Assembly (NCBI GenBank): GCA_028688015.1
Contig: JAQTZB010000004.1
Span: forward strand, 124,001 to 188,000
Source of the DNA: Elusimicrobiales bacterium
GTDB lineage: Bacteria > Elusimicrobiota > Elusimicrobia > Elusimicrobiales > UBA9959
DNA length: 64,000 nucleotides
Direction: 5' to 3'
The notes beneath the pieces are model-generated. The model saw only the letters and a list, made by a program, of their open reading frames with translations. It ran no database searches and was not told the origin of the DNA. How positions within the stretch are numbered: position 1 is the first letter of the stretch; every line of letters begins with the position of its first letter. This document shows, in pieces, positions 17,934-32,300 of the stretch. Position numbers and translations under genes: made by a program.

Positions 17934-19304
17934 CTATTTAGCGGCGGCCACGGCCCCGGAATGCTTGCGGTAATGCGCCAGCAGCTCGTCGGCTATGGCC
18001 TTTATTTTGGCCTTGGACTCGCCCTCCACCAGCAGCCGCAGCAGCGGCTCGGTGCCGGAGTAGCGGATGAAGATACGGCCGTTGCCCTTCAGCCCGCCCT
18101 CGAGCCTGGAGAGCTTGTCGCTGAAGCCCGCCACGTCCTTGAAGTCGGGCTTGCCGGTCACCCTGACCTTCTCCACTACCTGCGGGTAGCGGCTCCAATG
18201 CCGGCGGAACCAGCTGAAAGGTTTGCCCATGTCGCGCACGGCGGCCAGCGTCTGCAGCGCGGTCAGCACTCCGTCGCCAGTGGGGGCGAACTCGCGGAAA
18301 ATGATGTGGCCGCTGGTCTCGCCGCCTATCTTCAGGTCGCCCTTCTCCATGGCGTCGGTGACATTCTTGTCGCCGACGGGGACCTGCGCCACGCTGATGC
18401 CCTGGCCCTCCAGGTACTTGAGCAGGCCGTAGTTGGACATGAAAGTCAGCGACACGCCATTATTGGTCAGGCGGCCGCGGGCCTTCAGGTAGGGGGCCGT
18501 CATCGCTATGACGTCGTCGCCGTCGAGCTGCGCGCCCTTCTCGTCTGCGAACATGCAGCGGTCGGCGTCGCCGTCGAAGCTGATGCCGCAGAACGCGCCC
18601 CATTTTGCGGCGGCCTGGGCCATCTTTTCGGTATGAAGCGCGCCGCAGCCCATATTGATATTCTTCCCGTTGGGCTTGTCTCCTATCACCTTGACCTTGG
18701 CGCCCAGGTCGCGGAAGATGCGCGGGCCGATCTTATAGGCGGCTCCGTTGGCGCAGTCCAGCAGGATCTTCAGGCCTTTCAGCGTGAAGCCGGGCGGCAG
18801 CGTGCTCTTGAGGAAGTCCTCGTAGTCGCGCGTAAAATCCTTCTTGTGCAGGCCGGGATGCGTCGGGCGGAACTTCAGCGGCTCACGGCCGAGCAGCAGC
18901 TTCTCTATCTTGTTCTCTATGGCGTCATTGAGCTTGAGCCCGTCGTTGGAAAAGAACTTGATGCCGTTGAATTCGGGCGGGTTGTGGCTGGCGGAGATGA
19001 CTATGCCGAAGTCGGCGTTCTCGCGCTTTACCAGGTAGGACACGGCCGGGGTGGGAATGATGCCGAGATCAACAACCTTGAACTTGCTGGCACCCAGGCC
19101 CTCTACCAGGTATTTCTTTATGAGCCTGCCGGAGGCGCGGGAGTCCATGCCGATGAGCACCACCGGTTTGCCGGTGTGCCCCTTCTTCTTATATTTAGGC
19201 AGCACCAGGGAGGCCGCGTAGCCTATCTTGCGGATGAAATCGGGGGTGAAAGGATAGTCCCAGGTGATGCCGCGTATGCCGTCAGTGCCGAATAGTTTGC
19301 CCAT
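17934..19304 (-). CDS. glmM: Phosphoglucosamine mutase
   Basis: Interconverts GlcN-6-P and GlcN-1-P. N-terminal FGTDGIRG, the phosphoserine loop ISASHNPPEFNGIKF (active Ser near residue 106), the Mg-binding DGDADR at 244-249, the sugar-binding GETSGHIIF and C-terminal phosphate-binding RYSGTEPLLRL are all intact. 456 residues. It is first in the apparent operon glmM-pdxJ-glmS-acpS-nnrD-thiL-tsaE-tsaB-rimI-TPR-ispE, with its own promoter just upstream. In many bacteria glmM is next to cdaA; here cdaA is 10 kb away. Confidence 0.98.
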   Translation of the reverse strand: MGKLFGTDGIRGITWDYPFTPDFIRKIGYAASLVLPKYKKKGHTGKPVVLIGMDSRASGRLIKKYLVEGLGASKFKVVDLGIIPTPAVSYLVKRENADFGIVISASHNPPEFNGIKFFSNDGLKLNDAIENKIEKLLLGREPLKFRPTHPGLHKKDFTRDYEDFLKSTLPPGFTLKGLKILLDCANGAAYKIGPRIFRDLGAKVKVIGDKPNGKNINMGCGALHTEKMAQAAAKWGAFCGISFDGDADRCMFADEKGAQLDGDDVIAMTAPYLKARGRLTNNGVSLTFMSNYGLLKYLEGQGISVAQVPVGDKNVTDAMEKGDLKIGGETSGHIIFREFAPTGDGVLTALQTLAAVRDMGKPFSWFRRHWSRYPQVVEKVRVTGKPDFKDVAGFSDKLSRLEGGLKGNGRIFIRYSGTEPLLRLLVEGESKAKIKAIADELLAHYRKHSGAVAAAK

Positions 19305-27743: not shown

Positions 27744-28868
27744 TTACTCGCCGCGATACGCCTTGGTCAGCCGCTCCGGGGAAACAACGGTATAGCCGTT
27801 GTCCGCCAGCCAGGCCACCAGGCGGATGGAGGCGGTGCGGCTCTGGGAATGGATGTCGTGCATCAGCACTATGCCCTTGCCGCGCTGCTTTATCATGGAG
27901 ACGGTTTTCTGAAAAAGTTCCTCGGGGTCCTTGGTGGACCAGTCCAGTGTGTCTATGGTCCAGCCGACCGGCACCAGGCCCAGTTCGGAATCCGCGGCCC
28001 GCAGCTGCTCCACTGTGACGATGCCGTAGGGCGGCCTGAAGAACTGGGGCGCCGCGCCGGTGGTTTCCTTGATGGAGGCTTTCACTCCGCCGAGCTGCTT
28101 CACGGACTCGCCGGTGGACATGGCGGTTAAGGGCTTGTCGCCCGCAGCCGCGTGGTTGTAGCCGTGCACCGCCACTGAGTGGCCGTCGGCGGCCTCGGCC
28201 TTTATGCGGCCTTTGCCGGCAGCGCCGGCGATGTTGCGGCCCAGCACGAAGAAAATGGAGGGCGCGTTGCCGGCCTTCATGCCGGCGGAAACCTCTTCGG
28301 TCAGGGCGCCAGGGCCGTCGTCGAAGGTAAGGATCACTTCGCCCTTCTTCAGGAAGCCGTCGTACTGCACGAGGAACGGCACGTTGTTCTTGACGTAATT
28401 GATCTGGCAGTAGCCCGCCTTTATCGGCACGCCGCGCTCCGCGTCGCGTGCGGCGGGCCGGGCGTAGAAGCCGAAAACGTCGTTGAGCTCGGCGGAGATC
28501 CTGTAGGAGACCTCGCCCCCGCCGCGCGAGGCCGGGCCCTTATAATCCCGCCCCGTTTCTTTCTGTATGAGCGCGCGGACCTCCTCCAGGCGGCCGCGCA
28601 GGTACTGGCCCGCGGCCGCGGCCTCCAGGTATTCGGGGCTGTCCTGGGGCGACACGTAGGCCACGCTGGAATAGACCTTCAGCGCGGAATAGATTTCGTC
28701 GTAGTCGCCGATCAGCTCTATGGCGTCCGCCGCGGCGGGGCTGGCGGCGGGCACCTCCACGTCCCCGGGAGCCCCGGGGAGCCGGAGGTCGGCGGCGGCC
28801 GCGTTCAGCAGGGCCGAAAAGGAAATAAGCGCGGCGAAAAAGAAAGACTCGCGGAGCAGTTTTATCAT
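27744..28868 (-). CDS. Secreted polysaccharide deacetylase (NodB/CE4 family)
   Basis: 374 residues from the ATG at 28868, chosen because it gives a clean signal peptide (MIKLLRESFFFAALISFSAL). N-terminal ~150 residues are an uncharacterised helical region. The CE4 domain follows: motif 1 LTFDDGPG (Asp pair near 183-184), metal-binding H-x3-H in VAVHGYNH (near 235-239), motif 3 RPPYGIV, motif 4 WTIDTLDW, motif 5 IVLMHDIH. All catalytic residues are present. It probably deacetylates peptidoglycan or an exported polysaccharide. There is no Shine-Dalgarno sequence; a CATAAT box is 6 bases before the ATG, so it may be leaderless. Confidence 0.92.
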   Translation of the reverse strand: MIKLLRESFFFAALISFSALLNAAAADLRLPGAPGDVEVPAASPAAADAIELIGDYDEIYSALKVYSSVAYVSPQDSPEYLEAAAAGQYLRGRLEEVRALIQKETGRDYKGPASRGGGEVSYRISAELNDVFGFYARPAARDAERGVPIKAGYCQINYVKNNVPFLVQYDGFLKKGEVILTFDDGPGALTEEVSAGMKAGNAPSIFFVLGRNIAGAAGKGRIKAEAADGHSVAVHGYNHAAAGDKPLTAMSTGESVKQLGGVKASIKETTGAAPQFFRPPYGIVTVEQLRAADSELGLVPVGWTIDTLDWSTKDPEELFQKTVSMIKQRGKGIVLMHDIHSQSRTASIRLVAWLADNGYTVVSPERLTKAYRGE

Positions 28869-28912
28869 ATCTATATTATGCCGCATAAACGCGGCAGCAA
28901 TAAGAGGCGAAA

Positions 28913-28938
28913 GGCCCAAAAACCGCAGTTTTTGGGCC
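28913..28938 (-). terminator. Terminator of the hpt-ftsH-cdaA operon
   Basis: GGCCCAAAAA and TTTTTGGGCC enclose CCGCAG; on the minus strand TTTCG follows. The A/T part of the stem supplies the U tract. It sits 30 bases after the mini-CdaR stop and upstream of the deacetylase start. Confidence 0.75.
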
Positions 28939-28968
28939 CAGGAGGGATAGGACTAAAGGTCTTGGCGG

Positions 28969-29070
28969 TCAGCCGATGCCGCCGCGCTTGAAGTACCAGA
29001 TCAGCAGGGCTATGATGAGCGACAGCGCTTTGATCTGCCAGTTGCGGGTAAAGAGTTCGGGGATGTTCAT
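28969..29070 (-). CDS. 33-residue CdaR/YbbR-like membrane anchor
   Basis: A complete small ORF starting three bases after the cdaA stop (TGA ACC ATG) and ending in TGA. The product is MNIPELFTRNWQIKALSL... with one membrane helix (LSLIIALLIWYF) and a basic end FKRGGIG. The segment NW-x-L/I-K-x-L-S-L-x-x-A-x-x-x-W-Y is how CdaR/YbbR proteins begin, and cdaR directly follows cdaA in Firmicutes. Here the YbbR repeats that normally follow are missing: the frame stops right after the helix. It is either a reduced CdaA partner or the remnant of a deleted cdaR. Intact frame and coupling favour a functional microprotein. Confidence 0.75.
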   Translation of the reverse strand: MNIPELFTRNWQIKALSLIIALLIWYFKRGGIG

Positions 29071-29073
29071 GGT

Positions 29074-29898
29074 TCAGGCCTGGGGGGGCGGGGCGGCGGC
29101 GGGCGGGACCGCGGCAGGCGCTCCGGGCCGCTGGGCCTTGCGCAGCAGGGTCTTCTCGGCCTTGGAGCGGTACAGCTGGTACAGCATGGCCTCGAGGTCT
29201 TTGGGGTCCACGTGCTGCTGCAGCTTGCCGTTGCGGGCTACGCTCAGCGTGCCGGTCTCTTCGGAAACGATGACGATGATGGCGTCGGCGGCCTCGCTGA
29301 GGCCCAGCGCCGCGCGGTGGCGCATGCCGAGGATCTTGGACAGTTCCTGCTGCTCGGTCAGCGGCAGGATGCAGCCGGCGGCCACCAGCCGGTTATTGGC
29401 TATCACGGCGGCCCCGTCGTGCAGCAGGGTGTTGATGTGGAAGACGGTGAGCAGCAGTTCCTTGGATACCTCGCCGTTCACGCGCACGCCCGTCTCCACT
29501 ATGTCGCGCAGCGCCATGTCCTGCTCGAGCACTATCAGCATGCCCATCTTTTCGGCCATCGCGGAGCGCACGGCCTCCATCATCTCGCCGATAAAGCGGT
29601 ACTCGGCCGAAACCATCACCCGCCCCAGCGGGTTGGAGCCGATGTTCGCCAGCGCGAAGCGGATCTCGGGCTGAAAAACGACGATGAGCAGCACCATGCC
29701 GGCTACCCAGAACTGCCCTACGAGCCAGACCGTGGCGGCGAGGTGCAGGGCCTGGGCCAGGGCTGTGATGACCGCGAGGATGGAGACGCCCCAAATTACC
29801 TGCATGGCGCGGGTGCCCTTGAGCAGCAGGATGAGGCGGTACACTATGTAGTATACCACCGCGATGTCTATGAGGTCCCTAAGGTACTGCAGGTACAA
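29074..29898 (-). CDS. cdaA: Diadenylate cyclase, CdaA type
   Basis: Makes c-di-AMP from two ATP at the membrane. Three N-terminal membrane helices (about residues 10-27, 35-52 and 57-76) precede the DAC domain, with catalytic LLHDGAAVI (DGA 161-163) and GMRHRAALG (RHR 193-195). Topology and motifs are those of CdaA/DacA rather than DisA. The ~20 C-terminal residues are Pro/Ala-rich and not part of the domain. It is 18 bases after ftsH and is followed at once by a CdaR-like mini-ORF. glmM, the usual third member of this operon, is elsewhere in the window. Confidence 0.95.
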   Translation of the reverse strand: MYLQYLRDLIDIAVVYYIVYRLILLLKGTRAMQVIWGVSILAVITALAQALHLAATVWLVGQFWVAGMVLLIVVFQPEIRFALANIGSNPLGRVMVSAEYRFIGEMMEAVRSAMAEKMGMLIVLEQDMALRDIVETGVRVNGEVSKELLLTVFHINTLLHDGAAVIANNRLVAAGCILPLTEQQELSKILGMRHRAALGLSEAADAIIVIVSEETGTLSVARNGKLQQHVDPKDLEAMLYQLYRSKAEKTLLRKAQRPGAPAAVPPAAAPPPQA

Positions 29899-29916: not shown

Positions 29917-31757
<1,841 letters not shown>

Positions 31758-31758
<1 letters not shown>

Positions 31759-32300
31759 TAGTTCTTTCCTTGTATGGCGGCCTCGTTGAGCACGCCGATG
31801 TACGGCAGGTTGCGGTAGATGCCGTTATAGTCCAGCCCGTAGCCCACGACGAATTTATCGGGGATGCTGAAAGCGGAATACTTGATCGGGACCTGGGCCC
31901 GGCGGCGCGAGGGTTTATCCAGCAGCGTGCAGATCTCCACCGACTTGGGGCGGCGGGTCTTGAGGTTCTGCAGCATGTACTGCATCGTCAGGCCGGAGTC
32001 CACTATGTCCTCTACGATGATCACATCGGAATCCTCGATGCTTTCCTTGAGGTCCAGCAGGATGCGCACCACGCCGGTGGAATGCTCGCCGGAGTACGAG
32101 GAGACCATCATGAAGTCCAGCCGCGTGTCGAGGTCGATGTGCCGGGCCAGGTCGGCCAGGAACAGCGTGCAGCCTTTCAGCACGCCCACCAGCGTGACGG
32201 TGCGGCCCGCGTAGTCGCGCGAGATCCGCTCGCCCAGCTGCTTAACGCCTTCGGCGAGCTGCTCCCTGGAAATCAGTATCTCCTGCAGGTCCTTATGCAT
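31758..32300 (-). CDS. hpt: Hypoxanthine phosphoribosyltransferase
   Basis: Purine salvage: converts hypoxanthine (and guanine) plus PRPP to nucleotide. The PRPP-binding loop is VIIVEDIVDSGLTM (usual VEDIIDTG), the PPi loop is VGVLKGCTLFLADLARHI, the flexible-loop SSYSGEHSTG is present, and the C-terminal VGYGLDYNGIYRNLPYIGVL is diagnostic. 180 residues. Promoter 9 bases upstream of the start. First gene of the hpt-ftsH-cdaA-mini-CdaR operon. Confidence 0.96.

Follow-up and report, generated by a model that had tools for sequence, protein, structure and literature searches.

In the window, the 64,000 nucleotides of Elusimicrobiales DNA analysed here, a very short reading frame lies directly behind cdaA, the gene for the membrane diadenylate cyclase. 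What does this gene encode, and how might its product be connected with the cyclase? The initial annotation placed it three bases past the cdaA stop codon, which the ORF coordinates confirm (Table 1). On the basis of sequence comparison, we propose that its product is very probably a minimal CdaR: a free-standing protein of some 25-50 residues that retains the N-terminal membrane helix of this CdaA regulator, lacks YbbR domains and would pack on CdaA to set its output. What was observed directly is that the gene is conserved and under selection, where it lies, that the helix is fused to CdaA in some lineages, that one helix face is conserved and that YbbR is absent.

Table 1. Features of the mini-ORF locus, with window coordinates.
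Feature	Position	Strand	Details
Candidate mini-CdaR ORF	28969..29070	-	33 aa, ATG start; listed ORF with translation MNIPELFTRNWQIKALSLIIALLIWYFKRGGIG
Layout of the mini-ORF product	28969..29070	-	MNIPELFTRN predicted cytoplasmic lead, predicted helix WQIKALSLIIALLIWYF, short tail
cdaA, membrane diadenylate cyclase	29074..29898	-	274 aa, TTG start as listed
Hairpin of 12 pairs, 3' of the mini-ORF	28912..28939	-	possible transcript end; no clear T run
ftsH, upstream of cdaA, same direction	29917..31758	-	TIGR01241, 806.9 bits
hpt, hypoxanthine phosphoribosyltransferase	31758..32300	-	TIGR01203, 214.3 bits
glmM	17982..19292	-	TIGR01455, 463.7 bits, cut-off 447.55; contig 141982-143292

The partner gene encodes a CdaA-type diadenylate cyclase. 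Its product matches TIGR00159 with 213.6 bits against a cut-off of 188.8, and a Pfam scan found both the CdaA_N membrane domain and the DAC domain (PF02457). The DGA (D161 G162 A163) and RHR (R193 H194 R195) motifs of the latter are invariant in 36 aligned CdaA rows, an alignment from which the mini-proteins were left out. The mini-ORF of the window itself had no match in Pfam or in NCBIfam, and a PDB profile search returned nothing meaningful (best E 0.6). Scanning 52 mini-proteins against Pfam and NCBIfam gave no consistent family, with at most 2 of the 52 members matching any one. A mini-ORF profile did match its own genome (E 4.8e-15). Downstream, the region 28860-28975, which contains the hairpin, folds with a z of -4.08; the hairpin was absent from the output of a consensus terminator scan.

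The initial annotation suggested looking for the same ORF in related genomes and for purifying selection on it, and both were found. The ORF follows cdaA in all 31 complete loci of the genus; the 32nd genome has cdaA only as a scrap at a contig end. Across the 31 loci, dN/dS is 0.075/0.909 (about 0.08) for residues 2-28 of the mini-ORF and 0.062/0.667 for 120 codons of cdaA, and the length of the mini-ORF is constant. Entropies of 0.27, 0.09 and 0.91 at its three codon positions show that amino acids rather than bases are conserved. pN/pS of the same DNA is 0.14 in the true frame, compared with 0.32 to 4.85 in the two other forward and three antisense frames. The mini-ORF is a real gene under strong purifying selection, like cdaA. 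Residues 29-32 are free to vary (pN/pS 1.06), indicating that selection sees the helix and its lead and not the tail. Thus, while the helix ORF described for this genome recurs in its relatives, the basic tail KRGGI described with it is confined, among the 31 loci, to this genome and its closest relative.

We then considered how widely the gene occurs across the phylum Elusimicrobiota, which the broad search covered. A DAC domain was found in 220 of 340 genomes, and 219 cdaA loci from 215 genomes were examined. In this set two genes were fetched twice (L109/L129 and L108/L175), and the loci of named genomes (L037-L077) were left out of the counts. Families and genera carry anonymous labels (f1, g1 and so on), and loci and genomes are labelled L and G. 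A 25-position helix profile scored at least 8 bits at 205 of the 219 loci, compared with none on the reverse strand, none in shuffled sequence and one far downstream (+800..+1900). Since this profile was built from the loci on which it was tested, a second one was trained on the window's family, f1, alone. At 5 bits or more it found the helix at 119 of the 162 other loci (reverse strand 0, far downstream 2), and at 3 bits or more at 125 (reverse strand 11, far downstream 8). Counted by genome, 202 of 215 (74 of 83 genera) have the helix at their cdaA locus; it is nearly phylum-wide, a wider spread than the initial annotation supposed. Outside this set, the closest named relative is the MAG Elusimicrobia bacterium GWC2_64_44, with 98% identity in CdaA. 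In one scan of CdaA-relative loci from named genomes, a mini-ORF was present at 39 of 41 (32 with Elusimicrob- names and 7 named 'bacterium'); by the same pattern, the two cyanobacterial loci had none.

The helix occurs in three forms. It is a separate mini-ORF in 146 genomes, the C-terminus of CdaA in 44 (form F), and part of a CdaA-helix-single-YbbR fusion in 13 (form FY). G330 has two kinds (L174 and L175), a type A cdaA with a separate mini-ORF and a type B CdaA-helix-YbbR fusion. The separate forms, which include two frayed copies beside a broken cdaA (G250, G256), span 54 genera and 17 of 23 families, and have a median size of 32 aa (range 24-64, taking the furthest-upstream start). One further locus assigned to this form, L087 (16 aa, 5.9 bits), was a false positive and by genome is counted as having none. 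A start codon is present in 145 separate ORFs, and in 134 of them it lies between -40 and +30 nt from the cdaA stop.

An ORF this short might be open by chance, or might be a leader that acts through its translation rather than its product, and its frequent overlap with the end of cdaA (by 4 nt, with the start at -4, in 61 of 145) would suit the latter. Chance was rejected by the reverse-strand, shuffled and far-downstream controls. A leader is at odds with the conservation of amino acids rather than bases and with the fusion of the peptide to CdaA in several lineages; it is refuted unless the peptide is never made. We consider this explanation, in either version, exceedingly improbable.

The conserved residues point to a defined helix face. 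Those that stand out are Asn, Lys, Ala/Ser, Ala/Ser and Trp, and conservation peaks at 100 degrees per residue (genus-weighted permutation test: p 0.0003 in the separate forms, 0.02 in the fused ones). The motif [KR]xx[AS]xxx[AS]xxx[WYF] is carried by 141 of the 146 separate forms, and 56 of the 59 fused forms have it within their last 170 residues. Three of four Firmicutes CdaR N-termini share it, against 48 occurrences in 109,337 residues of background. An N-terminal membrane helix with a CdaR-type face is thus common to the mini-proteins and most of the Firmicutes CdaRs compared. Profile similarity to the Firmicutes CdaR helices is weak: only that of Paenibacillus exceeded background (13.2 bits, E 0.003), the other three lying at or below the best background score of 5.7 bits. 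A profile of the separate ORFs scored at least 6 bits at 20 of 44 F loci and 1 of 15 FY loci; of 1205 window frames one did so, and of 219 CdaA N-termini none. Analysis of helix-CdaA coevolution, which had low power (Neff 35), gave no excess in the membrane region, with 9 of the 50 top pairs there versus 15.8 expected.

In a midpoint-rooted FastTree of 213 CdaA proteins, 159 proteins of type A and 54 of type B are split with support 1.0. In type A the helix has become the in-frame C-terminus of CdaA in three separate places (f1 g6; G288; G319/G320). In type B it is in frame with CdaA except at L140 and L228, where contig ends cut the loci; L124, scored as lacking YbbR, is likewise cut by a contig end. 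Thirteen type B genomes have one YbbR domain behind the helix: four of these tails pass the Pfam cut-off, and the nine others match a profile of those four with E 1e-18 or better. The 38 fused loci of f15 that lack YbbR group together (support 0.86) among YbbR-bearing ones, and this nesting suggests that YbbR was probably lost in f15 while the helix was kept. The nodes joining the group are weak (0.58 and 0.56; a deeper one has 0.94), and the change may have run in the opposite direction. No YbbR domain was seen with any type A CdaA, and no separate gene for a helix with YbbR was found in the regions scanned at cdaA loci. A search for the CdaR/YbbR family PF07949, whose members carry at least one extracellular YbbR domain, gave no match in the window's genome even with stop codons read through, and the mini-ORF has no such domain. 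Five of the 340 phylum genomes gave PF07949 matches. The match in G331 was spurious; the region encodes a large secreted-type repeat protein, with no cdaA. Among 14 control genomes, 11 had a DAC domain and 4 had YbbR, Thermotoga and Synechococcus being examples of DAC without YbbR.

These results bear on the two readings offered by the initial annotation. The second of them, that the ORF is a decayed cdaR pseudogene whose first codons are open by chance, fits its resemblance to the start of a CdaR. A dN/dS of about 0.08 with constant length across the genus, the lack of any YbbR remnant in the genome, and the presence of a separate ORF in 54 genera together refute it, and we give it practically no credence. 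The first, that this lineage has kept only the transmembrane part of CdaR, is supported by the presence of the ORF throughout the genus, by the selection on it and by the lack of a YbbR match. In most of the Elusimicrobiota genomes examined, a helix of roughly 25-50 residues stands beside CdaA or is fused to it where other bacteria have the large regulator CdaR, and this points to the helix as what evolution retains of CdaR.

We also considered the position of the gene. In Anoxybacillus and Lysinibacillus records cdaR is annotated between cdaA and glmM, the classical operon. A GlmM start motif, scored as a motif match only, lies within 1.5 kb behind cdaA at 66 of 147 separate-ORF loci (L087 still being included here) in 13 families, placing these mini-ORFs in the position of cdaR. 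This order does not occur in f1 (0 of 55), and in the window glmM has the same direction at a distance of about 10 kb, whereas in other families it directly follows the mini-ORF. At E <= 0.01, a whole-genome search with the 52 mini-proteins hit 182 of the 340 genomes, usually a single time in each; by eye, the matches listed were mostly on the cdaA contig. This search misses much of type B. It also matched four f2 genomes and G331, all weakly except G124, which has no DAC match and carries a mini-ORF ahead of glmM where a contig ends. In G302 the mini-ORF is directly ahead of glmM, with cdaA on another contig.

Because ftsH is just upstream of cdaA in the window, the mini-protein could be an adaptor through which the membrane protease FtsH receives CdaA. 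The downstream neighbour in 66 of the 147 separate-ORF loci is glmM, and the fusions seen are to CdaA; we regard an adaptor role as very improbable. Another explanation is a single-helix CdaA subunit of separate descent from CdaR, which came independently to occupy the same operon slot with a similar helix face. The weak profile similarity to both Firmicutes CdaR helices and YbbR-fused CdaA helices would be expected of such a subunit, as would the absence of YbbR from type A CdaAs. Against this, the gene occupies the same slot ahead of glmM, the face motif is common to three of four CdaR N-termini, and the type B helix directly precedes a YbbR domain. We judge an independent origin distinctly unlikely.

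If the gene does encode a minimal CdaR, the mini-protein and CdaA would be produced jointly, their genes being adjacent or overlapping, and the mini-protein would most likely insert with its N-terminus inside. One face of its helix (Lys, small, small, Trp at i, i+3, i+7 and i+11) would pack on the membrane helices of CdaA, and this packing would set CdaA assembly, stability or output. As well as descent from CdaR, we infer this topology, contact and effect on activity from the observations above. The mini-protein would then be the membrane contact alone, with CdaA set without an external sensor. A broader idea has a rather low chance of being correct. In it, the CdaA partner was at its ancient core a helix alone, YbbR sensors being later or dispensable; packing between helices would suffice to control CdaA in Elusimicrobiota, with no external sensor; and the helix would repeatedly have become a fourth membrane segment of CdaA.

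Small single-helix subunits or regulators of membrane proteins include KdpF, AcrZ and phospholamban, which, like the mini-protein, consist of one helix some 30 residues long and are produced alongside or for a membrane partner. We know of no such partner for a diadenylate cyclase, and no paper on one was found in the literature searched. A helix-only CdaR was not described in the titles, abstract starts and passages of the open-access literature searched, and a mention in a DAC domain-architecture survey is possible. If binding is confirmed, the mini-protein may be one of the smallest partners of a second-messenger enzyme. Where a phylum has retained the helix alone, with selection on it similar to that on the cyclase, the part of CdaR that would matter is isolated. 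The motif describes a candidate contact face, and the natural CdaA-helix fusions could serve structural studies.

The contact proposed here has precedents in the passages available to us from studies of CdaR, which describe it as meeting CdaA through membrane regions (PMC6368335; PMC10243994). Some streptococci are described as having CdaA-CdaR fusions, and the contact is predicted to involve the first helix of CdaA (PMC10243994). As in both F and FY, regulator helix and CdaA are there in one chain; the streptococcal fusions join CdaA with CdaR, whereas those of Elusimicrobiota have one YbbR domain (FY) or none (F). Like CdaR/YbbR (PF07949), the mini-protein has a single N-terminal membrane helix and can be encoded between cdaA and glmM; it differs in lacking any extracellular YbbR domain, of which the CdaR of lactic acid bacteria is described as having three or four (PMC10243994). 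One passage reports suppressors of a ybbR deletion with a change in DacA TM3 (PMC5207132), and another an increase in c-di-AMP of about 2.5-fold on deletion of cdaR in Porphyromonas (PMC9259658). CdaR is described as an activator or repressor with an unclear mechanism (PMC8573169). Counting against a minimal CdaR, alongside the lack of a coevolution signal and the weak profile similarities, passages of one study report no conclusive regulatory role of YbbR in S. aureus, and c-di-AMP that stayed high in E. coli co-expressing YbbR and DacA (PMC6368335).

The initial annotation further suggested that the helix may be the essential contact. Our findings are consistent with a contact; strict need is contradicted by f10, f11 and f19, which keep cdaA without a detectable helix at 10 loci, including L087, which ends 139 nt past cdaA. 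In f10 and f11 (L187, L197, L199, L204, L254) glmM is directly behind cdaA, with the mini-ORF missing between them. In f19 no helix was found, either adjoining cdaA or elsewhere in the genome. The helix is thus not strictly required. Some absences are due to contig ends. The gene directly behind cdaA in f19 (L084, L153, L166, L191) is gyrB-like, as named by eye. The sister family f2 (G037-G060, 1.3-1.7 Mb) had a cdaA match in 0 of 24 genomes and is not represented among the 220 DAC genomes; the cyclase seems to have been lost in this lineage. In the small genomes G250, G251 and G256 of f21 (L255, L256, L257), cdaA is broken and a mini-ORF remnant without the conserved Trp lies nearby, as if the two genes were decaying together.
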